Positions 8,401-64,000 of a DNA stretch of 64,000 bases are shown piece by piece. The notes beneath the pieces are model-generated. The model searched no databases, had not been told where the DNA came from, and worked only from the letters and a program-made list of their open reading frames with translations. The first letter of the stretch is position 1, and every line of letters begins with the position of its first letter. A program made the translations under genes and the position numbers. The stretch is taken from the NCBI GenBank assembly GCA_021234155.1, contig JAJEKV010000167.1, forward strand, positions 560,145 to 624,144. Direction: 5' to 3'. The stretch comes from Isoetes taiwanensis (Eukaryota > Streptophyta > Lycopodiopsida > Isoetales > Isoetaceae).

Positions 8401-8667
8401 GAGACAGCTAGGATGGGATCAATGCCCAGATGAGGAATGAAGGAGGAAAAAGGAGTGCAATCTAAAACAACAACAAACCATATAAGAGTACAAGATACCA
8501 CAACCAAATCCACAAAAGGAGCAGATTTGAAGACAACCTCACGATGCCCGCACATTCATATTAGAAAAGAAATGGGAAGAATGCCCTGAGCCAAAAAAGG
8601 TGTAAGTTTCACAAGAATGATGGTTCTATTCATGCTGATTAAAACCATTGCATTCTTGGGAAAGGTC

Positions 8668-40016: not shown

Positions 40017-40028
40017 GGCCCCTATTTC

Positions 40029-41632: not shown

Positions 41633-41670
41633 CTAGAAAAGGGCCCGGCCTGACGGCCGGGCCCTTTTCT
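41633..41670 (-). repeat. Helitron 3' terminus 1: CTAG plus 16-bp hairpin
   Basis: Minus strand: hairpin core gggcccggcc / loop gtca / ggccgggccc followed by tttt and CTAG, then T. Stem 41,635-41,650 and 41,655-41,670 are perfectly complementary. A partial copy lacking one arm (tcaggccgggcccttttctt) stands at 42,450. Confidence 0.85.
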
Positions 41671-41726
41671 TTTGCTCCTTTCCTCGGCTCGGCCGGCCTC
41701 CGGCCGGCCTCGCCTCGGTTTGGGCC

Positions 41727-42030
41727 CACCCACGTGCCCTATCTCCCTCTCTCCTCTCTCTCTTCTCTCTCCTATCTCTCCCCTCTCTCCTCTCTCTTCC
41801 CTCATCTCCCTCTCTCTCTCTCTTCTCTCTCCTCCCTCCTCTCTTCTTTTTCTCTCTCTCTCCTCTCTCTTCTTTCCCTCTCTCTCTCTCTCCTCTCTCT
41901 TCTTTCCTCTCTCTCTCTCCTCTCTCTTCCCTCTCTCTTCTCTCTCTTCTTCCTCCTCTCTCTTCTCTCTCCTCTCTCTCTCTCTCTCTCTTCCCTCTCT
42001 CTCTCTCTCCCCTCTCTCTTCTCTCTCTCT

Positions 42031-42072
<42 letters not shown>

Positions 42073-42440
42073 TCTTCTCTCTCTCCCTCTCTCTCTCCTC
42101 TCTCTCTCTCCTCTCTTCTCTCTCTCTCCTCTTTTCTGTCTCTCTTCCCTCTCTCTCCTCTCTCTCTCCCCCCTGTTTTCCTTCTCTCTCTATTTCTCCC
42201 CTCTCTCTCTATGTCTCCCCTCTCTCTCTATCTTTCTCTCTTCTCTCTCTTTTCCCTCTCTCTCATCTCTCTTCTCTCTCCTCTCTCTTCTTTCCCGTCT
42301 CTCTCTCCCCTCTCTCTTCCCTCTCTCTTCTCTCTCTTCTCTCTCCTCTTTGCTCTCCTCTCTCTCTCTCTCTCCCCTCTCTTCTCTCTCTCTCTCCTCT
42401 CTCCTCTCTCCTCTCTTCTGTCTCCTCTCTCCTCTCTTCT
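41727..42440. repeat. CT (pyrimidine) tract 1
   Basis: Almost pure C and T on plus, built from ctct, ctcttctctct and ctctctcc blocks, with few A. Long serine/leucine-rich open frames through it result from the lack of A (no stops) and are not genes. Confidence 0.95.
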
Positions 42441-42449
42441 GTCTCTTCT

Positions 42450-42640
42450 GTCAGGCCGGGCCCTTTTCTTTTGCACCCTTCCTCGGCTCGGCCGGCCGAA
42501 GGCCGGGCCGGCCTCGCCTCGATTTGGACCCACCCATGCCCTTCTTTTTTGGAGTATTCCTCGGCTCGGCCGGCCTCCGGCCGGCCTCGCCTCGATTTGG
42601 ACCCCATTAACACTTTTGACTGAGTCCCTTTCCTTTTGTA
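42450..42640 (-). repeat. GC-rich Helitron subterminal block, duplicated
   Basis: Two direct copies of cctcggctcggccggcc... cctcgcctcgatttggaccc (42,480-42,533 and 42,560-42,604) follow a half-hairpin at 42,450-42,471. The same block follows the complete hairpins at 41,685, 47,880 and, decayed, 58,080. It marks the inner side of each 3' terminus. Confidence 0.8.
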
Positions 42641-43065
42641 GCATCTCTCTCTCTTCCCTCTTTCTCCCCTCTGTATTCGCTCTCTCCTCTCTTCTCTCTC
42701 CTCCCTCTCTCCCCTCTCTCTTCTGCATAATGAGCCAACCTGGCAGCACGCTCTGCATCCGTTTCCCTCTGCTGGGCACTGCTCATGGCCACTTCTTCTG
42801 CATGATGAGCCAACCTGGTAGCGCGCTCCTCCTCTACTTCTCTATTCTTCATTTGCGCTCTTCTGTTTCTCTGATATTCGGCAGCTCTATCCAGCCTTGC
42901 TTGTCGCTCCTCTGACGTCTCTGTTGCAAGTAGTCGTTGTCTTCTATTTTGTTGCCTTTCCCTGTCTCGGGCGCGTCTAGCTTCTTTCTCCTCCAATGTC
43001 TCCTCTTTTTGTCTGCGCGGCATTGTTCTATTTCCTTTTTTTTCTATTAACAATGCCTCTCTCAT
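42607..43065 (-). CDS. Basic STPR-like repeat protein, Helitron-protein N-terminus
   Basis: The frame begins MREALL (43,065), with the likely start MPRRQKEETLEEKEARRARD at 43,023. It has Arg/Glu-rich repeats of about 23-25 residues: RDRERQQNRRQRLLATETSE, EERQARLDRAAEYQRNRRAQ, EEERATRLAHHAEEV, then DAERAARLAHYAEE. Repeats with ...(E/S)..RL....(E).RRR... and period 23-24 occur at the N-terminus of many Helitron Rep-helicase proteins and in STPR-domain DNA-binding proteins. After residue 115 or so the frame runs into the GA tract (GERGRREKRGESEYRGEKEG) and stops at 42,607, so the rest of the Helitron protein has been lost. A decayed homologue lies at 63,380-63,870. Function alone is unknown; DNA binding is an inference. 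Confidence 0.65.
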   Translation of the reverse strand: MREALLIEKKGNRTMPRRQKEETLEEKEARRARDRERQQNRRQRLLATETSEERQARLDRAAEYQRNRRAQMKNREVEEERATRLAHHAEEVAMSSAQQRETDAERAARLAHYAEERGERGRREKRGESEYRGEKEGRERDATKGKGLSQKC

Positions 43066-43354
43066 CCCTCTCTCTTCTCTCTCTTCTCCCTCCTCTCTAT
43101 TCTCTCTCCTCTCTCTCTCTCCTCTCTCTTCCCTTTCTCCTTTCTCTCTTCTCTCTACTCTCTCCTCTCTCTTCTCTCCCTCTCCTCACTCCTCTCTCTC
43201 TCCTCTTTTCTGTCTGTCTTCTCTCTCTTCTCTCTCTCCTCTCTCTCTCTCCCCCCTTTTTTCCTCACTCTCCTCTCTCTATTTCTCCCCCCTTTCTCTG
43301 TATTTCTCCCCTCTCTCTCTATCTTTTTCTCTCTCTCTCCTCTCTTCCCTCTAT

Positions 43355-43406
<52 letters not shown>

Positions 43407-44168
43407 CTCTTTCCTCTCCTCTCTTTCTCTCTCCTCTTTTCTTTCTCTCTTTCCTCTCTCTCTCTCTCTCTCCCCCCTTTTTTCCTTCTCTCTCCTACTC
43501 TCTCTCTATCTTTCTCTCTCTCTCTCTCTTCCCTCTCTCTCTTCCCTCTCTCTTCTCTCTCTTCTCTCTCTCTCTCTCTCCTATCCCCTCTCTCTCTCTC
43601 TCCTCTCTCTTCTCTCTCTTCTCTCTCCTCTCTTCTCTCCTCTCTCTCTCTCTTCTCTCTCCTCTCTCTCCTCTCTTCTGTCTCTTCTCTCTCTCTCTTC
43701 TCTCTCTCTCTCCCTCCCTCTTTTTCTTCTCTCTCTCCTATCTTTCTCTCTCTCTCTATTTCTCCCCTCTCTACTCTTTTCTGTCTCTCTCATCTCTCTT
43801 CTCTCTCCTCTCTCTTCTTTCCCCTCTCCATCTCTCTTCTCTCTCCTCTCTCTTCTTTCCCCTCTCTCTCCCCCCTCTCTCTTCCCTCTCTCTTCTCTCT
43901 CCTCTCTCTTCTTTCCCCTCTTTCTCTCTCCCCCCTCTCTCTTCTCTCTCCTCTCTCCTCTCTTCTCTCCCCTCTCTCCTCCCTCCCTCTCTCTTCTCTC
44001 TCTCTCTCCTCTCTCCTCTCTCCTCTCTCCTCTCTCCTCTCCCCTTTTTTCCTTCTCTCTCTCCTATCTATTCCTCTCTCTCTCTCCCTCTTCTCCCTCC
44101 TCTCTCTTCTCTCTCTCCTCTCTCTTCTCCCCTCTCCTCTATCTTTCCCTCTTCTCTCTCTGGCTTCA
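43065..44168. repeat. CT tract 2
   Basis: Pyrimidine tract of about 1.1 kb, purer than tract 1, with (CT)n runs of up to about 30 bases and few interruptions. A 399-residue Ser/Leu-rich frame crosses it and is rejected as a gene. Confidence 0.95.
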
Positions 44169-44169
44169 T

Positions 44170-44197
44170 TTCTAGAACATTCTAGAAGGTTCTAGAA
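44170..44197. promoter_or_regulatory. Six-unit heat-shock-element-like site
   Basis: TTC and GAA alternate at 44,170, 44,175, 44,180, 44,185, 44,190 and 44,195, exactly 5 bp apart (core ttctagaacattctagaagg). This matches the nGAAn consensus for heat-shock factor trimers. On minus it lies about 1.1 kb upstream of the repeat ORF, in a promoter-like position for the element. Binding is not shown. Confidence 0.6.
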
Positions 44198-44224
44198 TCA
44201 TCAAAACTCTTAATTAACCAGGAT

Positions 44225-44495
44225 TTCCATTGTCCCAGCCTTAACTAAGCATGGACTTCCTATTCTTTCAAGAAAAACTTTCTTGGTCTAGTGGTAAGGG
44301 GTGGGGTTTGAGGGCAATGTCCGGGGTTCAAGTCATTCTGGTAAACCAAAAAATTTGTCCACCAAACTTGGGAGCTTTTGAGAGGCCAAGGCCCACGGAC
44401 GGCCGAGATCAAGGCACGTGGTGCCTCCTTATCCGTCGATGGGGTGTGAAATACTCACAGACTCACTCACGGACGCTATTCTTTTATTATATTAG
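44225..44495 (+). repeat. Pol III box module 1 (tRNA-derived, SINE-like)
   Basis: Starts near cccagccttaactaagcatg. A box TGGTCTAGTGG at 44,284-44,294 and B box GGTTCAAGTCA at 44,325-44,335, spaced 30 bp, as in tRNA genes. Followed by accaaaaaatttgtccacca, a block with gcccacggacggccgagatc and cacgtgg, and ends ttttattatatta. Four more copies lie in this window. It is either a SINE carried by the Helitron or its 5' region. Confidence 0.7.
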
Positions 44496-44775
44496 ATCTC
44501 TCTCCTCCCTCTTCTTTCCCTCTCTCTCCCCTCTCTCTTCCCTCTCTCCTCTCTCTTCTTTCCCTCTTTCTCTCTCCCCCCTCTCTCTTCTCTCTCTCTC
44601 CTCTCTTCTCTCCCCTCTCTCTCCTCCCTCCCCTCTCTTCTCTCTCTCTCTTCCCTTTTTTCCTTCTCTCTCTCCTATCTATTCCTCTCTCTCTCTCCCT
44701 CTTCTCCCTCCTCTCTCTTCTCTCTCTCCTCTCTCTTCTCCCCCTCTATCTTTCCCTCTTCTCTCTCTAGCTTCA
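44496..44775. repeat. CT tract 3
   Basis: Short pyrimidine tract of 280 bp between modules 1 and 2, so this unit lacks a hairpin terminus and seems truncated. Confidence 0.9.
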
Positions 44776-44803
44776 TTCTAGAACATTCTAGAAGGTTCTA
44801 GAA
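44776..44803. promoter_or_regulatory. Six-unit heat-shock-element-like site, second copy
   Basis: TTC/GAA modules at 44,776, 44,781, 44,786, 44,791, 44,796 and 44,801 in exact 5-bp phase, identical in core to 44,170-44,197. Confidence 0.6.
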
Positions 44804-44829
44804 TCATCAAGGCTCTTAATTAACCAAAG

Positions 44830-45112
44830 GAATTTCCATTGTCCCAGCCTTAACTAAGCATGGACTTCCTATTCTTTCAAGAAAAGACTGGTTGGTCTAG
44901 TGGTAAGGGTGGGGGGTTTGGGGGGCAATGTCCAGGGTTCAAGTCCGTGGTAAACCAAAAAAATTTTGTCCACCAAACTTGGGAGCTTTTGAGAGGCCAA
45001 GGCCCACGGACGGCCGAGATCAAGCCACGTGGCGCCTCCTTATCCGTCGATGGGGTGTGAAATACTCCTCACTCTTTATCACTCCTCGGGCCTATTTCTT
45101 TATTATATTAGA
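44830..45112 (+). repeat. Pol III box module 2
   Basis: A box TGGTCTAGTGG 44,893-44,903; B box GGTTCAAGTCC 44,936-44,946, a perfect consensus with 32 bp between. Tail ttctttattatatta; on minus the reading TCTAATATAATAAAG starts at 45,112. More than 90 percent alike to module 1 by eye. Confidence 0.75.
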
Positions 45113-45115
45113 ATA

Positions 45116-45142
45116 CTAGAAAGGGCCCGGCGGGCCCTTTCT
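45116..45142 (-). repeat. Helitron 3' terminus 2 (short hairpin)
   Basis: CTAG at 45,116-45,119; stem agaaagggccc (45,118-45,128) and its complement (45,132-45,142) around a 3-base loop. It follows Pol III module 2 directly. Confidence 0.75.
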
Positions 45143-45149
45143 TTCTCTC

Positions 45150-45298
45150 CTTTCCTCGGCTCTTTCTCTCCTCCGGCCTCCCCCTGGCCTCCTCCTCTCT
45201 CCCACCCATGTGCCCTATTTCCATCTCTCCTTTCTTTATTCTCTCTCTTCTTCTCTCTCTTCTATCTCTCTCTCCTCTCTCTTCTCTCTCCTCTCCTC

Positions 45299-45339
<41 letters not shown>

Positions 45340-46505
45340 TCTATGCTCTCTCCTCTCTCTTCTTTGTCTCTCCTCTCTCCTTGCTCTCTCTCTTCCATCC
45401 TTCTTCTCTCTCTTCTCTCTCCTCCCTTGCTCCCTTCTCTCTCTCTCTCTTTCTTTCTCTCTCTCTCTTTTTCTCTCTCATCCCTCTCTTCTCTCTCTCA
45501 TTCCTCTCCTCTCTCCTCCTCTCCTCCTCTCTTCTCTCTCTCTCCTCTCTCCTCTCTCCTCTCTCTCTCCTATCTCTCTCCTCTCTCTCTTTTCTCCCCT
45601 CTCTCTATCTCCTCTCTCTCCTCCTCCCTCTATCTCCTCTTTCTCTAACTCCTATTTCTCTTCTCTCTCTCTGTTTCTCTCCTTTCTCTCTACCTTTCTC
45701 TTTCTTTTCTATTTCTCTCTCTCCTCTCTCTCTCCTATCTCTCTCTCTCTCTCCTCCCTCTCCTCCTCTCCTCCTCTCTCTCTCTCTCTCTCTCTCTCTC
45801 CTCCTCTCTCTTTTTCTCCCCTCTCTATCTCTTATCTCTCTCCTCTCTCTATCTCCTATTTCTCTATCTCCTATTTCTCTCCTCTCTCTCTATTTCTCCC
45901 CTCTCTCCCTCCTCTCTCTTCTCCCTATCTTCTCTCTCCTCTCTCTCTCTTCTCCCCCTCTTTCTCCCTCCTCTCTCTCTCTCCTCCTCTCTCTCCCCTC
46001 TCTCTCCTCTCCCCCTCTCTTTTTCCTCCTTCCCTCTCTCTCTCCTCTCTCTTTTTTTCTCTCCTCTCTCCCTCCTCTCTCTTCTCTTTCTTTCCTCTCT
46101 CCTCTCTCTTCTTTCCTCTCTCTCTCTCTCTTCTCTCTCTCCCCTCTTCCTTTGTCTATCTTCTCTCTCCTCTCTCTTCTTTTCCTCTCCTCTCTCTCTC
46201 TCTCTCTCCCCTCTCCTCTCCTCTTCCCTCTCCTCTCTTCTTCCCCTCTCTCTCTTTCTCTCTCCTCTCTCTCTCATCTCTCTTCTTTCCCTCTCTCTCT
46301 CCTCTCTCTTCCTTCTTTCTTCTCTCTCTTCTCTCTCCTCCTCCTCTCTTTCTCTCTCCTCTCTCTTTCTTTCTCTCTCTTCTCTCTCTCTCCCCTCTCC
46401 CTCTGTCTCTATTCTCTCTCTTCTTTGTCTCTCCTCTCTTTTTGCTCTCTCTCTCCTCTCTCTTCATCCTTCTTCTCTCTCTTCTCTCTCTTCTCTCTCT
46501 CCTCC

Positions 46506-46551
<46 letters not shown>

Positions 46552-46965
46552 CCTCTTCCCTCTCTCTTCTCTCTCTTCTCTCTCTCATCCCTCTCCTCTC
46601 TCCTCCCTCTCCTCTCTTCTCTTTCTCTCCTCTCTCCTCTCTCCTCTCTCCTCTCTCTCTCCTCCTCTCCTCTCTCTCTCTTTCTCCCCTCTCTCTCTCT
46701 CCTCTCTCCTCTCTCTCCTCTCTCTCTCTCTCCTCTCTCTCCTCTCTCTCTCTCCTCTCTCTCCTCTCTCCCCTCTCTCTCTTCTCTCTCTCCTCTCTCC
46801 TCTCTCCTCTCTCTCTCTCCTCTCTCTCTCCTATCTCTCTCCTCTCTCTCTATTTCTCCCCTCTCTCTATCTCCTATCTCTCTTCTCTCTCTATCTCCTA
46901 TTTCTCTATCTCCTATCTCTCTTCTCTCTCTATCTCCTATCTCTCTTCTCTCTCTCCTCTCTCCA
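45150..46965. repeat. CT tract 4
   Basis: 1.8 kb of C and T with occasional A and G (tatctcctatctctc blocks towards 46,850). Ser/Leu-rich frames of up to 679 codons cross it; all rejected. Confidence 0.95.
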
Positions 46966-46994
46966 AACCCCCCACCCTATCTCTCTATCTGAGT

Positions 46995-47560
46995 TTTTAC
47001 AAAGTTTAAGCAAACTTTCTATTTTTAGACTGAAACTTTCTATTCTTAGACTGAGGTGCTTACCCTAGAGCATCCCTATCAACATTCTAGCACATTCTAT
47101 TTTGAGCATTTGCAATGTTTCAAAAACTTTCTATTTTTTGATTGAGGTGCTTACCCATGAGCATCTGCAACATTCCATAACATTCTATTTTGAGCATTTG
47201 CAAAGTTTCAAAAAACTTTCTATTTTTAGACTGAAACATTCTATTTTTAGACTGAGGTGCTTACACATGAGCACCTGGAACATTCAAAAACATTCTATTA
47301 TGAGCATTTGCAAAGTTTCAAAAAACTTTCTATTTTAGGCCCTCTGTCTTTCTATTTTTAGGCTGAGGTGCTTGCCATGAGCACACAACATTCCACAACA
47401 TTCTATTGTGAGCATTTGCAAAGTTTCAAAAAAACTTCTATTTTTAGACTGAAAGTTTCTATTTTTAGACTGAGGTGCTTACTCATGAGCATCTGGAACA
47501 TTCTAGGACATTCCAAGAGATTCTAGAACATTCTAGAACATCCTAGAGTATCCTTGAATT
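46995..47560. repeat. Heat-shock-like satellite array 1
   Basis: Repeats of about 80-110 bp built from (c)ataacattctattttgagc, atttgcaaagtttcaaaaaa, ctttctatttttagactg and aggtgcttacccatgagcat. The end, 47,496-47,541, has ten GAA/TTC-type modules in exact 5-bp phase (47,496, 47,501, 47,506 and so on); seven fit perfectly. Every unit contains at least one aacattct half-site. Confidence 0.8.
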
Positions 47561-47564
47561 AATT

Positions 47565-47835
47565 AGGCCCCAGCCTTAACTAAGCATGGACTTCTTATTA
47601 TTTTAAGAAAAGACTGGTTGGTCTAGTGGTAAGGGTGGGGGGTTTGGGGGGCAATGTCCAGGGTTCGAGTCCCTGGTAAACCAAAAAAATTTTGTCCACC
47701 AAACTTGGGAGCTTTTGAGAGGCCAAGGCCCACGGACGGCCGAGATCGCGCCACGTGGCGCCTCCTTTACCGTCGGATGGGCCGGATTTACTCACTCACT
47801 CACTCACTCACGGACGCTATTTCTTTATTATATAA
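47565..47835 (+). repeat. Pol III box module 3
   Basis: A box TGGTCTAGTGG at about 47,619-47,629 and B box GGTTCGAGTCC at about 47,662-47,672. Tail tcactcactcactcacgg and ttctttattatata, then directly the Helitron CTAG at 47,836. Confidence 0.75.
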
Positions 47836-47872
47836 CTAGAAAAGGGCCCGGCCTGACGGCCGGGCCCTTTCT
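47836..47872 (-). repeat. Helitron 3' terminus 3: CTAG plus hairpin
   Basis: CTAG 47,836-47,839; hairpin core gggcccggcc, loop tgac, ggccgggccc at 47,844-47,867. Identical in core to terminus 1 at 41,633, which shows recent common origin. Confidence 0.85.
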
Positions 47873-47939
47873 TCCCTTCCGGCTCCTTCCTTCGGCCTCC
47901 GGCCGGCCTCGCCTCGGTCTGGGCCCATCCACGTGCCCT

Positions 47940-48780
47940 ATCTCCCTCTCTCCTCGCTCTCTTCTCTCTCCTATCTCTTCCCCCTCTCTCTCTCTCTCTC
48001 CCCCTTTCTCTCTTCTCTCTTTTCCCTCTTTTTACCCCCCCTCTCTCTCCTCTCTCTTCTCTCTCCTCTCTCCTCCCTCTCTACCATCTCTCCCCTCTCC
48101 TCTCTTTCCTCTTCTCTCTCTCTTGTCTTTCTCTCGAACATTCTAGCCCTTTTTTCCTTCTCTCTCTCCTCTTCTCTCTTCTCTCTCCTCTCTCTCTCCC
48201 ATCTCTCTCCCCCTCTATCTTTCCCTCTTCTCTCTCTAGCTTTATTCTAGAACATTCTAGAAGGTGCCCTCCCTCTCTCCTCTCTCTTCTTTCCCCTCTT
48301 TCTCTTTCAGCTCTCCTTTCTCTCTTCTCTACCATTTCTCTGTCTCTCCCCCTTTTCTCTCTTCTCTCTCTCCCCTTTTTCCTTCTCTATCTCCTATCTC
48401 TCTCCTCTCTCTCTATTTCTCCCGTCTCCCTATCTTTCTTCCTCTCTTCTCCCTTCTCCCTCTCTTCTCTCTCTCCCCTCTCTCTTTCTTGCTCTCTCCC
48501 CTCTTTTCTCTCTCTTCTCCCTCCTCTCTTTCTCTCTTTTTGCCTCTCTCTCTCTCCCCCTTCTCTTCCCTCTCTCTTCTCTCTTTCCTCTCTCCTCTCT
48601 GCTCTCCTCTCTCTCTCCTCCCTCCTCTCTTTCTCCCTCCTCTCTCTTTGTCTATCCCTCTCTTCTCTCTCTCCCCTCTCTCTCTCTCTTCTCCTCTCTT
48701 CTTTCTCTCTCTTCTCCTCTCTTCCCTCCCCTCTCTTCTCTCTCTCTCCTCCCTCCTCTCTCCTCTCCTCTCCTCACCCC
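47940..48780. repeat. CT tract 5
   Basis: Pyrimidine tract with several internal ttctagaacattctagaagg-like patches (48,134-48,150 and 48,244-48,265) that repeat the HSE-like core. Confidence 0.9.
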
Positions 48781-48784
48781 TTTT

Positions 48785-48925
48785 ATCATTGACACATACT
48801 CATACATGCCCATGAGGCCACATCTACTACCTCTACTACCAATTCTAAAGTATGTCAATTCTAAAGTATCACCCATGTGAAGCTTACACACACCCATCAT
48901 TGCTACCAATTCCAAAGTATCACCT
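48785..48925. repeat. TACCAATTC module, copy 1
   Basis: Words taccaattc(t/c)(a)aaagtat, gtcaattctaaagtatcacc, catgtgaagcttacacacac and ctactacctctactaccaat. Related blocks lie at 52,745-53,100, 53,630-53,765 and 58,235-58,720. Always found between a CT tract and an HSE-like array, or near a Helitron end. Nature unknown. Confidence 0.7.
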
Positions 48926-48939
48926 CCAGAATATTCTAT

Positions 48940-49985
48940 TTTGAGCATTTGCAAGGTTTCAAGAAACTTTCTACTTTTAGATGAGCTGCTTCTAGAGCAT
49001 AGGTGGTTGCCCTATAGCATCTGGAACACTCCAGAACATTCTATTTTGAGTTTTTGCAAAGTTTTAGCAAACTTTTCTGTTTTTAGACTACTGTACTTTC
49101 TATTTTTAGGGTGAGATGCTTACCCTAGAGCATCTGAAACATTCTAGGACATTCTATTTGAGTTTTTACAAAGTTTAAGCAAACTTTCTACTTTTAGACT
49201 GAAACTTTCTATTTTTAGACTGAGGTGCTTACCTTTAAGCATTTGCAACATTCCAGAACATTCTATTTTGAGCATTTGCAAAGTTTTAAAAAACTTTCTA
49301 TTTTTAGATTGAGGTGTTTACGCATGAGCATCTGCAATATTCCATAACATTCTATTTTGAGCATTTGCAAAGTTTCAAAAAACTTTCTATTTTTAGACTG
49401 AAACTTTCTATTTTTAGACTGAGGTGCTTACCCATGAGTATCTGGAACATTCCAGAACATTCTATTTTGAACATTTGCAAAGTTTCAAAAAATCTTCTAT
49501 TTTTTTACTGAAACTTTCTTTTCTTGGGCCCCTCTGCTTACCCATGAGCACCTGGAACATTCCATAACATTCTATTTTGAGCATTTGCAAAGTTTCAAAA
49601 AAACTTCTATTTTTAGGTAGGCCCATTCATTTACAAAGTTTCAAAAACTTTCTATTTTAGATTGAAACTTTCTATTTTTAGGCTGAAGGTGCTTACCCAT
49701 GAGCATCTGGAACATTCCAGAACATTCTATTTTGAACATTTGCAAAGTTTCAAAAACCTTCTATTTTTAATTTGAAACATTCTATTTTTAGGCGAGGTGC
49801 TTACCCATGAGCATCTCGGAACATTTCACAACATTCTATTTTGAGCATTTGCAAAGTTTTAAAAAAAACTTCTATTTTAATTTGAAACTTTCTATTTTAG
49901 ACAACATGAGCATCTCTCTCATTCTAGGACATTCAAGAGATTCTAGAACATTCTAGAACATCCTAGAGTATCCTTGAATTAATTA
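48940..49985. repeat. Heat-shock-like satellite array 2
   Basis: About nine units of 90-155 bp. Several contain GGAACATTCCAGAACATTCT (49,443-49,462 and 49,709-49,728), four perfect nGAAn modules in a row. The array ends with a longer in-phase run at about 49,916-49,962, followed by ccttgaattaattaa and module 4. Confidence 0.8.
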
Positions 49986-49989
49986 ACCC

Positions 49990-50237
49990 TCTTTAACTAA
50001 GCATGGACTTCCTATTATTTCAAGAAAAGGCTGGTTGGTCTAGTGGTAAGGGTGGGGGTTTGGGGGCAATGTCCGGGGTTCAAGTCCACTCTAAACCAAA
50101 AAAATTTTGTCCTGAAACTTGGGGGCTTTTGGGGGCCAAGGCCCCGACTTCCTCTCAAACCACGTCCGCCTCCTCCACCTCCTCCGGATGGGCGTGGAAT
50201 ACTCTCTCACTCCTCCCTTTCTCTTCTTTCTGTTAGA
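49990..50237 (+). repeat. Pol III box module 4, then decayed Helitron end
   Basis: A box TGGTCTAGTGG at about 50,036-50,046 and B box GGTTCAAGTCC at about 50,078-50,088. The 3' part is mixed with CT-rich sequence. Then ctag at 50,238 without a hairpin, so this terminus is decayed. Confidence 0.65.
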
Positions 50238-50598
50238 CTAGAAAACCTTCTATTTCTCTTCTCTTTTCTCTTTCTCCCTTTTAAGGCCTCCCCTCAGCTC
50301 TCTCCTCTCCTCTCTCATTTTTAGGCCCACCCATGTTCCCCTATCTCCTTCTCTTCCCTCTCTTTCTCTCTCCTCTCTCTCTCTCATCTCCATTTCTCTC
50401 TCTCTCTTTTCTTTTCTCTTCTCTCTATCCTCTCCCCTCTGTCTCTTCTTCTCTCTCCTCTCTCTTCTTTTCTCTCTCTCCTCTCTTCTCTCTTTTCTCT
50501 CCTCTCTCCTCTCTTTCTCCTCCTCTCTTCTCTTCTCTTTCTCTTTCCCTCTCCCTCTCTCCCTCTCTATCCTCTCTCCTCTTTCCTCTCTCTCTCTC

Positions 50599-50667
<69 letters not shown>

Positions 50668-50735
50668 TCTCTCTCTCTCCTCTCTCTCTATCTCTCCTCT
50701 CTCTCTCTTTTCTCCCCTCTTTCTCTATCTTTTCT

Positions 50736-50801
<66 letters not shown>

Positions 50802-51106
50802 CTCTTTCCTTCTCTTCTCCTATCTCTCTCCTCTCTCTCTCTCTCTTTCTCCCCTCTTTCTCTCTATCTTTCTCTTCTCTTTCCTCTCTCTCTTTCTCTC
50901 TCTCTCTTTTCCCTCTCTCTCTTCTCTCTCCTCTCTCTTCCCTCTCTCTCCTTTTCTTTTCCTCTCTCCTCCTCTCTCCTTCCCTTCTCTCTTTTTGTTT
51001 CTCTCCTCTCTCTTCCTCTCTCCTCTTCTCTCCCCCCCTCTCTCTCTCCCCATCTCTCTATCCTCTCTCTCTCTCCCCCTCTCTTCTCTCTCTCTCTCTT
51101 TTGTCT

Positions 51107-51155
<49 letters not shown>

Positions 51156-52735: not shown

Positions 52736-52744
52736 AAAGTTTTT

Positions 52745-53100
52745 ATCCATAAAAGCCTGCTTACACCTACTGCCATGCAAGTCCATATACACATGCCCTA
52801 CTACCAATTCTAAAGTATGACTCATTGAGAAGGACATTACCAATTCCAAAAAATCACCTATTTTACTTACTCACATCTCTTGCACTCATGGTATTTCACG
52901 GTCTTATTCACACATACTACTCAACCCTCTATTCCATTGCCATTAAAGTATCATTCATGAGGTAACATACTCACACATGCCCATGAGGGTCACATCTACT
53001 ACATCTACTACCAATTCTAAAAGTATGTCAATTCTAAAAGTATCACCCATGTAAAGCTTACACACACCCATTCACACTTACTACCAATTCCAAAGTATCA
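52745..53100. repeat. TACCAATTC module, copy 2
   Basis: Contains actaccaattctaaagtatg, acattaccaattccaaaaaa, catgaggtaacatactcaca and cacatctactacatctacta. Same family as 48,785-48,925. Confidence 0.7.
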
Positions 53101-54530: not shown

Positions 54531-54639
54531 GGGGCGAACATTCTTTCTTTGCTCCTTTCCTCGCTTAATTAGGCCCGACCTGCGCCTCCATTTGGGCGAC
54601 CCGTGACCTATGGACTCTCCTCTTGTTTCAAGAAAGGTT

Positions 54640-57250
54640 GGTCTAGTCTCTCTCCTCTCTCCTTTGGGGGCAGTGTTCTCCTTTCTTCTCTCTCCTCCCT
54701 CCTCTCCTTCTCCTCCTTCTCTCCTTTCTTCTTTCAAGGCTCTCCTCTCTCAGATTCTCCCCTCTCTCTATCTCCTCTCTCTCCCCACCGTCCAGATGGT
54801 CTCTCTACTCTCCTCCGCACCCATCTCTCTTCTCGAGCAGTTTCTCACCTCTCCTCTCTTTTTTCTTATATAGAGACTATCTTTTCTCTCTCGTCTCTCC
54901 TCTCTCTTCCCTCTCCTTTTCTCTCTTCCGGCCCTGTCTCTGCGCCTCGGTTTGGGCCCACCTTTGCCCCTATCTCCATCTCTCCTTTCTCTCTCTTCTC
55001 CTCTCTTCTCTCCTCCTTCTCTCTCTCTCCTCTCCTCTCCTCTCTTCTTTCCCTCTCTCTCTCTCTCTTTCCTCTTCTCTCCTCTCTCCTCCTCCTCTCT
55101 TTCTTTCTCCTCTCTCTCTTTCTCTCTCCCTCTCCCTCCTCTCCTCTCTCTCCCTCTCTCTTCTTTGTCTCTCCTCTCTCCTTCTCTCTCCCCCCTCTCT
55201 TCCATCCTTCTTCCTTCTCTCTCTCTCTATCTTTCTCTCTCCTCTCTTTCTCTCTCATCCCTCTCGTTTCTCTCTCATTCCTCTCTCCCCTCCTCCTCCT
55301 CTCTTCTCTCTCCTCCCCCTCTCCTCTCTCCTCTCTCTCCTCCCTCTCCTATCTCTCCTCTATTTCTCCTCTCTCTCTGTCTCCCCTCCTCTCCTCCCTC
55401 CTCTTCTCCTATTTCTCTAACTCCTATTTCTCTTCTCTCTCTCCTTTCTCCCCTTTCTCTCTCCTTTTCTCTCTCTTTCCATTTCTCTCTCTCTCATCTC
55501 TCTCTCTCTCCTCTCTCTCTTTTTCCTCTCTCTTCTCCTCTCTCTCTTTCTCCCATCTCTGTATTTCTCATCTCCTCTTTCTCTCCTCTCTCTCTATCTC
55601 TCCCTCTCTCCCTCTTCTCCCTCCTCTCTCTCCTCTCTCTCTCTCTTCTCTCTCTTCTATCTCTTCTCTCTCTCTCTCTATCTTCTCCCCTCTTTCTCCA
55701 TCTCTCTCTCCCCTCCTCTCTCTCCCCCTCTCTTTCCCCTCTCTCTCTCCATCCTCCCCTCTCTCCTCCTCTCTCTTTTCTCTCTTCTCTCCCTCCTCTC
55801 TCTCCCCTCTCTCTCTCTCCCACATCTTTCCTCCTTCCCTCTCTCTCCTCTCCTCTTTTTCTCTCCTCTTTCCTTCTCTCTCTTCTCTTTCTTCCCATCT
55901 CTCTCCTCTCTTCTTTCCTCTCTCTCTCTCTCTCTTCTCTCTCCCCTCTTTCCTTTGTCTATCTTCTACTCTCCTCTCTCTTCTCTTCCTCCTCCTCTCT
56001 CTCTATCTCTCTTCCCTCTCCTCTCCTCTTCCTCTCCTCTCTTTCTCTCTCCTCTCCTCTCTCTATCTCTCTTTCTCCTCTCTCTCTTCCTCTTTCTTTC
56101 CTTTCTCTTCTCTCTCTCCCTCCTCTCTTTCCCCTCTCTCCCTCTTTGTTTCTCTCTTCTCTCTCTCCCCTCTTTCCCTCTCTCTCTATTCTCCCATGCC
56201 TCTTTCTCTCTCCTCTCTCCTTGCTCTCCTCTCTCCTCTCTCTTCCTCTCTTCTTCTCTCCTTCTCTCTCCCTGTCTTTCCCTCTCTCTCTCTCTTTCTC
56301 TCTCCTCTCTGTCTTTCTCTTTCTCTATCTCCTCATCTGTCTTCTCTTTCTCTCTCTCTTCTCTCCCTCTTCCCTCTCTTTGAGGTCTCTCTCATCCCTC
56401 TCCTCTCCCAAAAAATCCTCCCTCTCTCTCCTTTCTCCTCTCTCCTCCTCTCCTCCTCTCTCCTTTCTCTCCTATCTCTCCTCTCTCTCCTCCCTCTCCT
56501 CTCTTCTCTCTCTCCTCTCTTCTCTCCTCTCCTCCTCCTCTCTCTTCTCTCTTCCTCTCCTCCCTCTTCCTTTGTCCTATCTTCTCTCTCCTCTCTCTTC
56601 TTTTTCTCCTCCTCCTCTCTCTCTCCTCTCCCCTTCCCTCTCTCTTCTTCCCTCCTCTTTTTCTCTCTCCTCCCTCTCATCTCTTCTCCTCCTCTCTCTT
56701 CCCTCTTTCTTCTTTCTCTTCTCTCTCCTCCCTCCTCTCTTTCTCTCCTTACTCTCTTTTGTTTCTCTCTCTCATTCTCTCTTCTTTTGTCTCCTCCTCT
56801 CTCCTCTTGCTCTCTCTCTCCTCTCTTCCATCCTTCTTCTCTCTGTTAGTCTCCTCCATGTCCCTTCTCCTCTCTCTCTATCTTTCTCTCTCCTCTCTAT
56901 CTCTTTCTCTCTCTCTCTCTCTTTCTCTCTCTCTGTGTGTCTTTCTCTTTCTCTCTTCTCTCCTTCTCTCCCTCTTCCTCTCTCTCTCTCTCATCCTCTC
57001 CTCCTCTCCTCTCTCTCTTCTCTCTCTATCTCCTCTCTCCTCTCCTCTCTCTTTCCTCTCTCTCTCCTCCTCTCCTCTCTTCTCTCCTCCTCTCTCTTCT
57101 CCTCTCTCCTCTCTCCTCTCTCTCTCTATCTCTCCTCCTCTCTCTTCTTTCTCCCCTACATCTCCTATCTCTCTTCTCTCTCTATCTCCTGTTTCTCTAT
57201 CTCCTATCTCTCTTCTCTCTGTCTCCTATCTCTCTTCTCCTCTCCTCCTC
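54640..57250. repeat. CT tract 7
   Basis: 2.6 kb of pyrimidines, rich in cctcctcctctc and ctctttctctct blocks. Ser/Leu-rich frames of 748 and 781 codons cross it, in two frames at once, so both are artefacts of composition. Confidence 0.93.
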
Positions 57251-57284
57251 TCAAAACCCCCCACCCTATCTCTCTCGGGGTTTT

Positions 57285-57785
57285 TACAAAGTTTTAACAA
57301 ACTTTCTATTTTTAAACTGGAACTTTCTGTTCTTGGGCGGGTTAGCTATACCCTAGAGCATCGCAACATTCTTACATTCTATTTGAGCATTTGCAACGTT
57401 TCAAAAAACTCTATTTTTGGATGAGGTACTTGCCGCGAGCATCGCAACATTCCATAACATTCTATTTGAGCATTTGTAAAGTTTCAAAAACTTTCTATTT
57501 TAGGCAGAAACATTATTTTTAGTGAGTGCTTACCCATGAGCACAGAACATTCAAACATTATGCAAATTCTGGCTTTCTATTTTTAATTTGAAAATTTCTA
57601 TTTTTAGTGGTGATTGCTTACCATGAGCACACAGGAACATTCCACAACATTCTATTTTGAGCATTTAAGTTTCAAAAACTTTATTTTTAGTGAAACTTTC
57701 TGTTTTTAGTACAGTGCTTGCCTCGCGGGCGCTCCAGACATTCTAGGACATTCCAGAGAACATTCGACATCCTGAAGTATCCTTA
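57285..57785. repeat. Heat-shock-like satellite array 4
   Basis: Four to five decayed units with aacattctatttgagcattt, aaactttctatttt and cattctaggacattccagag near 57,735-57,760, the last in 5-bp phase. Confidence 0.7.
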
Positions 57786-57789
57786 GATA

Positions 57790-58052
57790 ATTAGGCCCGC
57801 GCGCTAACTAAGCATGGGCACCATTCTTCAAGAAAAGGCGTTGGTCTAGTGGTAAGGTAGAAGTTTGAAACAATGTCGAGTTGGTCCCGTGTTAAACCAA
57901 AGTACATCCACCAAACTTGGTTTGAAGGCCAAGGCTCACGGGCAGAATCGCGCCGCGTGGCGCCCTCCTTCTGCGTCCGGATGGGGGTGGGAATTGCTCA
58001 CTCACTAACTAACCTGTGCTAACTCCATGACCTTTATTTCTTTATTATATGG
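57790..58052 (+). repeat. Pol III box module 5, decayed
   Basis: A box TGGTCTAGTGG intact at about 57,842-57,852, but the B-box region is changed (gttggtcccgtg at about 57,880). Tail ttatttctttattatatgga, then ctag at 58,053. Confidence 0.65.
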
Positions 58053-58234
58053 ACTAGAAAGGGCTGTGTGGACCCCGCCTCTCTCTCCTCGGCTCGGCCC
58101 CTCCCAGGAGCCTCGCCTCGGGACCCAGGCCCTCTCGTGACTTTTTCTCTTGCACCCTTCACTCCCTCAGTTTGGACATCCTTGGGACTATTCCTCGGCT
58201 CGGCTCAAGCCTCGATTTGGGCCCATCCTTGTAG

Positions 58235-58720
58235 TTCTACTACTGTTCATTCCAAATGTCACATTGAGGGCTTGTCATATCTACTACCAATTTTAAAAGT
58301 ATCATCTGTTGGGGTTTGCTCACCTACTAACTTGACTCACACTTTTCACAGTACACGGGCCCTTTTCTTTTATACTCATTTCGCTCGGCCTCGAAAACCT
58401 ACGCCTCGGTTTAGGCCACCACCGGCTGACTTTTCTCTTGCACCTTCACCATACGGTTTGGACATCCTTACAGGACTATTCCTCGGCCTCGGCCTCGGCG
58501 AGCCGCCTCGTGGGCCCCTCCATGTAGTTCTACTACTAATTCATTCCAAATGTCACATTGAGGGCTTAGTCATATCTGTTACCAATTTTGAGAGTATCAT
58601 CTGTTGAGGTTTACTCACACCTACTATAACCGACTCACCCCTCTGACACTGCCAATTTCAAACTATCATCCATTCGAACCCACTACACCTATTACTACTT
58701 TTAAAAGTATCACGGGTTAG
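58235..58720. repeat. TACCAATTC-type module, copies 3 and 4
   Basis: catatctactaccaatttta and catatctgttaccaattttg frame two diverged copies of a block ending gtatcatctgttg(g/a)ggttt. Between them a second decayed hairpin-like block (acgggcccttttctttta, 58,346) resembles a Helitron terminus. Confidence 0.55.
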
Positions 58721-58779
58721 CTTTGCAAAGGTTTCAAAAAAAAACCTTCTATTTTTAGATATTTTAGAAGATTCCTAGC

Positions 58780-58925
58780 ACATTCCCTCTCCCCTTTCTC
58801 TCTCTCTCTTCTCTCTCCTCTTGCTCTTCTCTTTCTCTCTCACATCTTTGTCTTTCTCTCTCTCTTCTCTCTCTTTCCTCTCCCTCTTGCCTCTCTTCTA
58901 TCTCCTCTCTTCCCTCTGCTTTTTC
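58780..58925. repeat. CT tract 8 (short)
   Basis: About 145 bp of pyrimidines between the TACCAATTC modules and the helicase tail; the counterpart of the larger CT tracts in the autonomous relic. Confidence 0.85.
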
Positions 58926-59279
58926 TTTTTAAACTCATTCCTCAAACAAAACGCCGGGGCCTGCGCCTCGGTTTGGGCGGTGCCATGTAATCCCCTAATG
59001 CCGATTTTCATTACTCAATCATTGGGTTCTTGTCGCAATCTACATACCTACTATCTATATATACTATCAATTCTAAACTATCACATGCATTGAAATTTCA
59101 AAAGCTCTTTAAAAAACGTTTTCAAAGTCTTGACTTCAAATATTTTGTTATATAAGTGCTTCTTTATATACAACATTAGGTGTATGTTAGGATGGTCTTT
59201 TGCAATGCACCGGCCGTGGCGATCTCGAAGTGTGAATTTTGACCTTTCAGATCTGTGAGGTGCACCCAACCAGTGAGCT

Positions 59280-60200
59280 GACTAAAAGGCGTCCATGGGC
59301 AGGGGTCTTTGTGAGTAAATAGCAGGTCTCGAAGATTGTATGCGATTTATTAATCGTCATTGAGGTACTAGGCAGTTGATTGTTGTCTTCTAGTGAAGGT
59401 ATGTCTGGTCGGATGGCGTTAAGTTATTTTATTGCAGGCCCAGGTACCTCTGGCGAATTAGCCCCAGTGACTATTTACCTTACGTAGGATTCTGTGTCGC
59501 TATGTGTGATCTGGCGGGATTCCATTACATAGGCCACGAGATACATGTTTCTAAGCAACATTACTATTGCTCCCACCTTGATATTGAGCTTGGGTGGCAT
59601 TCAAGGTGTGAGCGTGATTGATGGTTCGGGGAATTTCGAATGTCCTCTTCATCTTCATTGGGGGTATCAATACCCGATATATGGGTGCAAGTTTCCATGC
59701 AATCTTTGCGGGGTCTTGTCGCTAAGACTTCGGTTATCTTCATTTTTGGAGATAGTATAGATTTCTCGAATAAGCCGTTCCATGTTAGTTTGGATCTGTT
59801 CCAAACGCTTCATCGATGTGTTATTTTCTGGCAATACACTTCGGTAGCTCAAGCGGCGTCTTCGAGAAGCGTGGGCTGCGTCCTTCATTCGCTCTCCATT
59901 GCGAGCTTTGTAGTGTTGAATATTCCTTTTCGCCCTTCTTGGCCTTGTATTCGTTATTAGACGCAGAAATTGCTTCCCACGAAGTTGCTCTTAACACATT
60001 TTTGCAGAATCTCCATTTTCTTAGCTTCGTTTAATTACACGGGCAGCTGCCTTTCGTCGCCGCAAGCTAATACAACCATTTCCACCAAATGGCACGGAAT
60101 CTGTCAATTTCCTTCAAAGCATTATCTCTTACTTTGTGGCCTTCGGGCGTCGTAGCAATTCATCCCACCAAAAGTCTTTGCTTTCTTATTCTATCCGCTT
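59280..60200 (-). pseudogene. Pif1-type helicase part of the Helitron relic
   Basis: Read on minus: FWWDELLRRPKA (60,170 or so; the WDEapM Walker B region), ALKEIDRF (the E..DR.LRD segment), PFGG at about 60,082-60,092, MVVLACGDERQLPV at 60,039-60,080 (helicase motif III G(D)fRQ..PV), then LNIKVGAIVMLLRN at 59,548-59,594. Downstream EIVTGANSPEVPG-like text at about 59,450 and a diverged MTINK..(Q)T....LF(T)HGQL region to 59,290 fit the last motifs. Frames shift several times. Helicase identity is based on the order and spacing of four motifs. Confidence 0.62.
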
Positions 60201-60899
60201 GTTTGCTTGTGGCCTTGGTCGGATGTCAACCAGTCCCAGCCGAGTTTGGCGGGGCTTAAAGGCGTGGGGTACGCTGTTTGGGCTCCCTCAGGCAAAGGCT
60301 TGCTATGCACATCACTTAGCTGCTGTTAACAGGGCTCTTTTCCTCTTGGCATGCTAATAACAGCCAGCGAGGCAGGCATTTTCCGAGACCCCGAGACCAT
60401 CCACATTTTACACAATCGTCGTTTACACTCCTTAGTGCAAGAAGCAGCATCAATTCTTCCCTTTTATTAAAATCAATCACATATCGCTCGCCGCCTTTAG
60501 CCTTTTCAAAACTACGCCGAATATTTGATGTCATTGCATCGCCCGTCTGGGGAATATTCTTAACTCTGCAGGGTACGTGGCGCGGTCGTCCCGTTGCAAG
60601 AGAATTTCATTCGCCATAACGTTGCATTGTATACCGCCTTCCTCGCTATCCCAGCATAATCTTACCACTAAATAAGCGCTTGAACTTGTCCACGGGTTAA
60701 ATAGATGCGAGGAGGGCCCATATATGCAGATGAAAGCGAATATTTATGCGCCAATTGGCGAGCATTTGGCTTGGCCCATCATCAGCGTTCTTTCCCCGTG
60801 CGTCATCACTGGGTGTTAGGTTCGCTGGCATCTCGCGAAATGTATTGCATTGTTTCGATTCAGCATTTTCATATCACCGAAGCTGGTAATTGCCCTTTT

Positions 60900-62940
60900 A
60901 CGTAGCGACAATAAGCGCATAAATGTCACCGTTCCATATCTTTTGGTACGACGTGCCATCACGAAATTAATTTGGCGCACCTTCCCTTATCTTCGGATAC
61001 TTGCTTTTTATAAAAAAGTAATATAATGATAGAGTTACGGATATATATATTGTCAATGACATCAACTTTATTAGCTCAAGACAACGTATGTTTTATTTAT
61101 GACACGTTTCCAAAGCAATCATTCTTGACCTTCCTCATAATATATCATTTGCTTGTTGGGCAAATGGGCGGGCAACTCTGCTCATATGACAATAGTTAAG
61201 TATTTCATAAAGTATAAGCGTGCTGGGTTCCAAGTAAGGCAAATGGGCGTGGTTGCTCATATGACAATACTTAGTATCAATAAAGTATAATGTGGCTTTC
61301 AATTAACTTTCTTTGTGCCGCGATTGGGATGTGTCATGCATTTTGTATGACAAATGTCCTCATTGCTTACGGGCTGAGATGTATCTTGTAATAAAGCTCT
61401 TGTATCGTCCAATTATATGTGGCTTTTATCGTATGCAGATGTCTTTGTTAATGCAATGCTTGCTCGTCGTAGCCTTTATGGATGTACTTAAAATGTACTT
61501 TATACTTGCAATCTTTGGCTCACTCCCACATTTTATATGGCAAACATACTTCACTTTAAGAGATAGAGCATTATATGGAACAACCATCTTGTTGTCTATC
61601 ATTCTATTCCTTGCTCATATTGAATGCCGGGCGTCTTCTATATTAGGTATCCATTCTCACAGATTGAAATTAACTTTCCCGGCCGTACCTTTGGAAGCCT
61701 TTAGAACACTCATTGTTCGATCTTTTCCATTGAGTTTCATGCACCGTGGGGTGTGGTCCATGCACCATGCATTTTTATTTCATGCAATTCGGGGGTCTTT
61801 AATGGTGCAGTATGTCGTAGAAAAACAACCTGGACTTTACTTACATTACCGTGTAGAAAGCGATAATAATACCAGTGTACCTTACGGTATTTGACGCGTG
61901 ATCTGTCAATGTCTTCGCTATCATTTTATCATTTGTTCCATTGCTATTAGCATGGTCGGTGACCCGCTTTAGTATTCAATTGTATGAATAAACATACTTT
62001 TCCAAAAATATCTTTTCTAAGATATCATAGAATTCCCGTGGTGCCGTGTAGTACACCATTGCAACCACAATGGTCTATCCTCATTGGCCTACCTACAAGG
62101 GTGCTCTGTGATTTACGGCCCAATTTGCTTATTGCACGTGCATGTAACAAATAGGTACGGCTTTAAATCTTCTTACCAATGCCATGGAAGTCTTGATAGA
62201 TTTTGTTGCCTTGCGTGCACCACCAATAAGCAGCGATGGCAAGATAACCAAGCGTCCGGTGCGATCCTTGTGCCTGCCTTCGCCGTTTCACGCAATCAAT
62301 CAAGCCCTCATCGGCTCGAAAGTTTTTTGATTGATGAAATTCAAGGTGGCCTCTATCTTGCATGAGCATCAGCCCCTTGAGCCCCATTGCGTCGGTCTGC
62401 TTGGCCGCTCAGTTGAACTCAAATTTAAAGTACTGCTCCGGGTGTATTCCTTAGCGTGTAGTCTATACAAAATATTGCGGCGTAGACCGCGTTTTGTCTC
62501 GGCCATTCGGCAAGCAATTGCTTAGTTTCTCATATTCATTTGCCTCCCTTGTCACGAGGCAGTGTGTAATGGGTAGTAGGCACGTCTATGTGGGCCGGTA
62601 ATAGCAATATTTACAGCGCGCCTTTTGCAGTAGATCACCTCCCTATTAAAAGCGGGTCCCATCTAATTTACAAATATCACGGCAACCTCATTGACATATG
62701 CGAGTTGTATCTTCGCCAAGTCTAACCACCATTCTATCATCAACAGAAGTCATTCTTATACTGCGTGTTCATTTAAATTGCCAGGTACATTTCCTCTACC
62801 TCATGCATCATATTACGAGGCACATGCAAATAGGTTTCATACTCCTTGTTCTAAGTCAAGTTGCCTCATAAGATCCATGTCACATTACGCATTGTGCACA
62901 TTTGTGCACGTTCCATGTTACGTACTCCATATCTAGAATG
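60900..62940. other. Poorly resolved middle of the Helitron relic
   Basis: Besides the Rep-region block at 61.3-61.8 kb, minus frames at 62,387-62,163 and elsewhere have no recognisable motif. A plus-strand frame of 193 residues at 61,313-61,894 (MCRDWDVSCILYDKCPHCLR) lies over the Rep block and is judged an antisense artefact. Confidence 0.4.
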
Positions 62941-63379
62941 TATGGTTGGGTGTCGGCGATACGTATCATCGGGTAGGCGGGCCGGTCTATAGTAGACTTA
63001 GCCATGAATCTTAAAAGCAATATAGGCTAGTCTGTTAATTGTTGTTGTATATACTGGAATATTACAAATGCTATTACATTATTGCCGGTGTTCGTATAGC
63101 AATTTAATTCCTTACTTTTGGGTGATCTCCAATTAGCCATTGTAATACTTGAGCATTGGCGTTAGCGGAGGGACTAACTTTGCCGTTAAAGCAACGCCCG
63201 ATATCATCATGTTTAAATAACTGGCTGGTATTTTCGCATTCCGGTCGATTCTCCACATTGATGAGCCTCAGCGTGCATTGAATAATTACTCAGGGCTATT
63301 ACGTAAGTTGAAGGATTATCTCGGTTTGCGTCTCGCCGTTGAGCCTCTCTGACTAGCCTCAATATGTTCCTCTTACCGT

Positions 63380-63870
63380 CTCCCCTTGTTGGGCTGGAGC
63401 CTACTTGCGACTCTTTCCTCTGCTGGTCGCCAACACAGCGTACGCTCACGCATCAGTCGTCTCTCCTGTGGTGGCGGGCCATGCCTCTTTCCTCTTGCTG
63501 GTCAGCCAGCACAGCGTGCAGCTCATATCCGTCTCTCCTGGCGAGCAGACACCTTTGCGGCTCTTTCCTCTGCTGAATTAAGCCAACACAGCGACCGCTC
63601 CCGCCTCCAAATCTCTCCCTGCTTTAGGCGCTGAACACCGCCATGGCCTTCCCTGCATGATAGGCCAACACAGCATGCAACCTGTTCTACCCTCCCCTAC
63701 TCTTTATTTGTGCTCTTGTTTCTCACGATATTGACTCTATCCGGCCTTGTTTTGTCCATCCTCCCAGGTATTTCGTTATCTGTTTTGTTTCTTTCCACAT
63801 CTCAGACAGCGTCTAACTACCTCTCTAATGTCTCACTCCTTTATGCCTTGTGACGTTGTTCTATTTCCTT
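63380..63870 (-). pseudogene. STPR-like N-terminus of the Helitron relic, with amplified repeats
   Basis: Plus-strand landmarks match the intact copy at 42,720-43,060 in order: gccaacacagc(g/a) (like gccaacctggcagcacgctc), ttatttgtgctcttgtttct (like ttcatttgcgctcttctgtt), ctatccggccttg(t) (like ctatccagccttgct) and gttctatttcctttttctat (like gttctatttccttttttttc). The unit around gccaacacagcg recurs four times at 63,430, 63,503, 63,580 and 63,667 (spacing 73-87 bp), against two in the intact copy, so the protein repeat was amplified. Stops and shifts break the frame. Confidence 0.7.
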
Positions 63871-64000
63871 TTTCTATTAACGATTTGTGCGCACTTTTAA
63901 ACGGTATATAGAAACACGGTTAGAATAATGACTTTCAATGGAGCATTCTAGAACAATCTATGTTCAATGTTGCATAGAAGTTCACAAAAATTGCTATTTT

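Follow-up and report, generated by a model that had tools for sequence, protein, structure and literature searches.

Tandem Helitrons in other genomes and in Isoetes taiwanensis

Helitrons standing in tandem are known from bats, Drosophila, rice, maize and plant centromeres (references in the excerpted parts of PMC5148889 and PMC5876387), and head-to-tail arrays of these transposons are cited as a sign of rolling-circle replication. Here we describe a head-to-tail series of Helitrons in Isoetes taiwanensis that runs, by inspection of the sequence, on the minus strand from position 41,633 to the end of a 64,000-nucleotide stretch of the genome (hereafter the window, whose coordinates are used throughout; the array region is 41,633-64,000, and loci outside the window are numbered L015-L050). 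The array was probably built by serial insertion of copies onto the 5′ ends of resident ones, and not by the printing of a single copy.

The tandem Helitrons of other genomes are also arranged head to tail, but there the arrangement was read as evidence of circles or of rolling-circle replication, whereas in I. taiwanensis neighbours are on average not sisters and mimicry of the insertion target fits better (excerpts of PMC5148889, PMC5876387). In Fusarium and Metarhizium one FoHeli Helitron has inserted 2 bp upstream of the 5′ end of a second, a tandem of three also occurs, and insertion into the 5′ end was proposed as one cause; the FoHeli ends are non-canonical and the cases single, whereas here the ends are the canonical TC...CTAG and the majority of the sampled 3′ ends are involved (excerpts of PMC5148889). 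Helraiser and Helibat1 share with the Isoetes elements their TC and CTAG ends, a 3′ hairpin, insertion between A and T (A^T) and AT-rich surroundings, and the head-to-tail joins of their circles resemble the array joins by description; the Isoetes elements differ in a hairpin stem that reaches the C of CTAG, and in their long CT tracts, heat shock element (HSE)-like repeats and tRNA-like modules (excerpts of PMC4778049, PMC5876387). Caenorhabditis Helitrons likewise carry clustered heat shock elements inside, but the host here is a plant, and its repeats are HSE-like by sequence (excerpts of PMC6927752). Maize Helitrons bring several termini into one stretch by nesting, whereas here neighbours abut end to end (excerpts of PMC3288121).

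Tandem Helitrons, insertion at 5′ ends in fungi, nesting in maize and HSE-rich Helitrons in Caenorhabditis are already on record in these sources. The extent of the phenomenon in one genome, the test of whether neighbours are sisters and the explanation by target mimicry look new, and no statement that a Helitron 5′ end acts as a target mimic was found in the excerpts of open-licence literature. If copies do land serially on 5′ ends, array structure by itself is no proof of concatemer formation, and one sequence rule (A^T beside AT-rich DNA) would account for both the stacking and its direction; a route is then suggested from dispersed elements to tandem satellite-like blocks with clustered heat shock elements.

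Element ends, abutting copies and the insertion target

Read on the minus strand, the element begins 5′-TCTAATATAATAAAGAAATAG and continues through a tRNA-like A/B-box module, HSE-like repeats, GA-rich tracts and a GC hairpin to CTAG-3′, after which comes T; on the plus strand the 3′ end (hairpin and CTAG/T) lies at the left and the 5′ end, TCTAATATAATAAAG, at the right. The units, lettered A to F from left to right, show on the plus strand the order hairpin, CT tract, HSE-like repeats, tRNA-like A/B-box module, AT-rich tail and next CTAG. A preliminary description of this DNA had recognized the repeated order of HSE array, module and next CTAG, which is real, as well as the common orientation of the CTAG termini, which is borne out. 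Joins lie at 45,116 (with a 3-bp spacer), 47,836 (with none), 50,238, about 54,875 (blurred) and 58,054, the first two agreeing with the earlier statement that a hairpin starts within 5 bp of the preceding tail. Three-unit HSE matches number 22 in 41,633-64,000 and 1 in 1-41,632.

The evidence supports classing these elements as canonical Helitrons with TC/CTAG ends, in a mostly non-autonomous family. CTAG 3′ ends occur throughout, GA (equivalent to TC) stands beside 11 of 20 abutting CTAGs, and TC 5′ ends are present also at host-side ends such as those of L015, L019 and L034. An open PIF1 helicase frame on the element's strand (L023:3644-5023; PF05970, E 1.9e-55) is found in a locus with a perfect hairpin at its internal 3′ end; together with the A^T target this supports the original recognition of a head-to-tail Helitron array.

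The assembly (1.66 Gb, 1110 records) was searched with a query that included 36 tail bases, and 40 of the 1068 first-look candidates were scored. Thirty-eight of the 40 places were examined, two of them in the window and 36 being L015-L050, and the other two matched the query only beyond the hairpin; L043 and L046 have no readable CTAG, leaving 36 readable 3′ ends. The further CTAG-hairpin units anticipated elsewhere in the genome do exist: 20 of the 36 ends adjoin the 5′ module of another copy, 16 adjoin host or other DNA, and none is head to head. Module scores were at most 38 in 300 unrelated stretches and at least 98 in the 20 abutting cases; L028, with a score of 48, is counted as host although its last 25 bases are identical to a family 5′ end. 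Abutting copies point the same way, with 41 module and 47 head-motif matches forward and none reverse when orientation is taken per locus (a trivial result for single-unit loci). In the last 49 columns of their alignment the flanks of L027 and L032 resemble each other nearly up to the join, and this pair, like L028/L022, is only suggestive of landing at the ends of other Helitron families.

At all 16 host-site 3′ ends, and at 19 of the 20 abutting ones, the plus-strand base before CTAG is A. The hairpins are therefore not isolated copies lacking A/T insertion sites, the outcome that the preliminary description had named as fatal to its reading. AT content over the 15 flanking bases is 0.858 at host sites and 0.893 at abutting sites, compared with 0.620 at the 3,565 A^T sites of window positions 1-41,000 that served as the control, and the host value was reached in 0 of 20,000 resamples of the control sites. 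In L034 a two-module array of 4,899 bp sits inside one A^T site, with ...TTA before it and TTGG... after it; once joined, these flanks match an adjacent 88-bp host repeat with three mismatches until the copies part near the repeat end; the right flank of L019 matches an unoccupied copy (half-site) in L033. Insertion is between A and T without target duplication. Helraiser also uses AT targets in AT-rich surroundings, most strongly so on the side of the transposon's 3′ end (excerpt of PMC4778049).

Neighbouring copies are on average not sisters. Over all 33 modules, identity is 0.743 within loci (25 pairs) and 0.740 between loci (503 pairs). Among the 20 least noisy modules, a set that leaves out the within-unit pair of L016, the corresponding values are 0.870 (7 pairs) and 0.874 (182 pairs; permutation p 0.58), and the nearest relative lies in the same locus in 0 of 6 cases. 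Within the window, the nearest sampled relative of B is L020 (89%), that of A2 is L019 (96%) and that of part of C is L033 (92%), with D closest to L023 and L033. The joins themselves are mixed: 11 of 20 are exact (GA/CTAG), six are cut back inside the tail and stop short of TC (unit B's among them), one is a variant, and two have 4 or 10 extra bases. Compared with CTAG/TC, the window join at 47,836 lacks TC and that at 45,116 has its 3-bp spacer.

The CTAG and GC hairpin described at 41,633, 45,116 and 47,836 are present and fold far better than shuffles (z -8.5, -5.3 and -6.0, respectively), and in these window termini the stem extends to the C of CTAG. The usual Helitron hairpin is spaced more widely from the CTRR end. 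At the further CTAG ends placed at 50,238 and 58,053 the sequence folds no better than shuffles (z 0.2 and 1.3), and the second of these CTAGs stands at 58,054, a difference of one base. The identity of the 41,633 and 47,836 hairpins, which had been read as recent growth of the array, holds for their first 35 bases, which are also identical in many unlinked loci, but not for the 145-base heads, which are only 87% alike; among its top 14 hits the 41,633 head is matched at 94.5-100%, with eight other loci reaching 99-100%. Because the hairpin is the family consensus, its identity is no sign of recent growth, and dating of units by this means was rejected, the 41,633 head matching other loci better. 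A weakening of hairpins along the array was dropped from consideration, the sample having been chosen by strong hairpin and the neighbours being possibly noisy.

Proposed serial landing and its alternatives

In the proposed mechanism a Helitron would use A^T sites in AT-rich DNA, the CTAG at its 3′ end facing the AT-rich side, and a resident 5′ end (host A, then TC TAATATAATAAAG...) would constitute such a target site. New copies would land on the 5′ ends of older copies, or a few bases inside or beyond them, in the same direction, and the array would grow toward the element's 5′ side (rightwards here) from mostly independent copies. Landing would be head to tail because the incoming CTAG faces the AT-rich side that the resident 5′ end supplies. 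Target preference and stacking are correlated; that the one causes the other is inferred, as is the order of events. A preferred landing site at the tail of each module was the second choice of the preliminary description, and it is the better fit to the A^T/AT-rich target, the inexact joins and the non-sister neighbours. The element could further be a self-targeting transposon, its 5′ terminus attracting more insertions, with the ends of other families included, and its landing pads becoming HSE-rich satellite-like blocks; we put this forward tentatively and lean somewhat against it.

Several observations weigh against serial landing. The L034 array fits one insertion of a ready-made composite equally well, and several internal hairpins seem weak, which a read-through model would lead one to expect. 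The rate of 20 in 36 is not free of bias, since the 36-base tail in the query favours abutting hits and 40 of 1068 candidates were scored, although even a small fraction of it would presumably far exceed chance in 1.66 Gb. The expected T is found at three of five host-side 5′ flanks (L015, L019 and L034) and is absent in L020 and L022, and the within-locus pairs of the least-noisy test come from two loci only (the window and L019). In the full set the same-locus partner is nearest in four of 24 modules (W_44285, both of L016, and L033_1976), so some local duplication has taken place, also between the two modules of unit A. Finally, the 11 exact joins are also expected from rolling-circle read-through or from insertion of a circle multimer.

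Tandem duplication as a general cause was rejected for A2, B, C and D because each has its closest sampled relative at another locus. It was not rejected for the two modules of unit A or for L016, and unit E is a near tie between L020 and B. In L016:3678-4870 two near-identical modules lie about 746 bp apart in one unit, with no hairpin between them.

An unlikely alternative to serial landing is that arrays built by insertion were then recopied as one multi-unit Helitron, weak internal hairpins being passed and copying stopping at the first strong one (41,633; 47,836). The shortened internal hairpin at 45,116 and the strong ones at 41,633 and 47,836 are consistent with this, as are the truncated heads inside L034 and unit A, and in Helraiser loss of the hairpin raises read-through (excerpt of PMC4778049). 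Weak hairpins may, however, be read errors, and no clear two-unit order is repeated at two sites among inter-locus hits of at least 88% over at least 150 bases with CT tracts masked; L023 and L033 have in common a left unit (94%) and a 2.8-kb stretch over the join (89%), but only about 200 bases of this extend past the join on its right, where they fall within the common head.

The preliminary description preferred a rolling-circle concatemer, in which the 3′ stop is skipped and several copies of one element are laid down in a single event. We find this improbable. Exact CTAG/TC-type joins are frequent (11/20), Helraiser forms circles with precise head-to-tail joins (excerpt of PMC4778049), there is no reversed unit in the sampled loci, and for four of 24 modules the closest sampled relative is a same-locus partner. 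Tandem copies should nonetheless be sisters, and because neighbours resemble each other on average no more than unlinked copies do, with A2, B, C and D closest to sampled copies elsewhere, a concatemer is not supported; the nine inexact joins among 20 also weigh against it, because a skipped 3′ stop should yield exact joins only.

An assembly artefact, in which Helitron copies were wrongly joined through noisy nanopore contigs and gap filling, is very unlikely. The assembly was made with miniasm, racon, pilon and LR_Gapcloser (excerpt of PMC8566536), error-like gaps increase toward the N run, and 12 of the 36 loci are no more than 20 kb from the end of a record. Against this, abutment is seen at 20 of 36 sites spread over many records, including clean records whose joins are exact, and the L034 array is bounded by matching host flanks.

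Units of the window, coding remnants and sequence quality

Unit A (41,633-45,115, minus strand, as are all units) is the array's left (3′) end, at host DNA, and contains CT tracts; its perfect terminal hairpin (41,633-41,669, ending CTAG/T) is the family consensus. Nested insertion of this unit into a CT tract of another was rejected, the DNA left of 41,633 not being CT-rich. Inside it are a truncated second head at about 42,453 and two tRNA-like modules, each with its own tail (44,496 and 45,112). An internal 5′ end at 44,476-44,496 (CTATTCTTTTATTATATTAGA on the plus strand) is followed by a CT tract and no hairpin, and the unit's own 5′ end at 45,092-45,112 reads TCTAATATAATAAAGAAATAG on the minus strand, with the spacer ATA (3 bp) before the next CTAG. 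Heads starting at, or close to, the 3′ hairpin loop, without CTAG and the first half of the stem, occur at window 42,453-42,480, L034:7808, L019 (about 290) and L046; either transposition halted at the hairpin or reads broke there.

Unit B (45,116-47,835) has a hairpin shortened at the loop and is 76% like unit E, and its 5′ tail (47,817-47,835) ends in TATAA, flush with the 47,836 CTAG and without the terminal TC. Unit C (47,836-50,237) has a strong hairpin at 47,836-47,870. Unit D (50,238-54,875, the end being an estimate from blurred tail sequence) is error-rich in parts, has an unreadable hairpin, and is nearest to L023/L033 and not to unit C among the sampled copies. Unit E (54,876-58,053) is error-rich with a blurred start and matches L020 (77%) and unit B (76%) almost equally well, and unit F (58,054-64,000) continues past the window edge. 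The joins of the original division stand, but its unit from 50,238 to 58,053 is two units, the join near 54,875 having been missed, and unit A has two tails.

A run of HSE-like GAAnnTTCnnGAA lies at 44,170-44,200 (unstranded), with others near 44,776-44,803, 47,521, 48,245, 49,251-49,960 and 53,434-53,880. One tRNA-like A/B-box module occupies 44,284-44,496 on the plus strand, and further modules start at 44,893, 47,619, 50,036 and 57,842. ARAGORN finds 0 tRNA genes and Rfam no tRNA among 11 matches, so the earlier label of RNA polymerase III module derives solely from the A/B-box look, which the modules do have.

Among the listed relatives of the L023 helicase (the best 110 of 7992 scored candidates), named animal entries (nematode, rotifer) reach 46% identity and plant entries about 35%; given the plant host, it possibly represents an unusual Helitron lineage. 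Unit F holds a broken helicase remnant at 59,541-60,227 (E 1e-18). L024 contains remnants of the Rep region and helicase, and its broken frames match PF14214-bearing proteins with E down to 3e-18, with no whole frame seen. A coding fragment in unit A (42,730-43,030, minus strand) has a 79% DNA match to L024:4644-4890 and presumably resembles the basic N-terminus of Helitron proteins. Pfam at E 0.1 gave no hit for this fragment or for seven unit F pieces.

Gap openings per 100 bases relative to the best relative were profiled in 45 blocks, eight of them without a match and all eight in unit F. Up to about 49.5 kb, 11 blocks have values of 0-3.7; the next six blocks, to 53.5 kb, are mixed (1.6-5.5), and the 20 matched blocks after that have 4.2-7.4; true divergence from distant relatives may add to the gaps in unit F. 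Unit D compared with L023 has 89 gap events in 1861 columns, against 8 in 1781 for L023 compared with L033. From the first base after the window the assembly is N for at least 53,256 bases. The published assembly (1658.30 Mb, 204 scaffolds and 909 contigs) is from nanopore reads, with miniasm, racon and pilon and gap filling by LR_Gapcloser (excerpt of PMC8566536), and gap filling of this kind would account for an error gradient toward the N run. The termini at 50,238 and 58,054, previously called decayed, are probably altered by sequencing error and, being likely errors, are unfit for dating units. In window 50,000-58,000 and in L018 the same short words (such as AGACTGAGG) are repeatedly altered in noisy copies, and these changes resemble systematic errors in base calling, perhaps where the DNA is methylated.

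The twelve loci outside the window, of 36, that are no more than 20 kb from the end of a record are listed here (L017, L018, L019, L023, L024, L026, L029, L033, L039, L042, L043 and L050), and L017 and L025 run into N, which suggests that long arrays break the assembly.

Left of the array, the minus strand at 7,316-8,418 has what we take to be reverse-transcriptase-like frames, the piece at 7,987-8,418 being without a Pfam hit, and at 38,926-40,041, on the same strand, lies a non-LTR retrotransposon endonuclease (Exo_endo_phos_2, E 5e-7).

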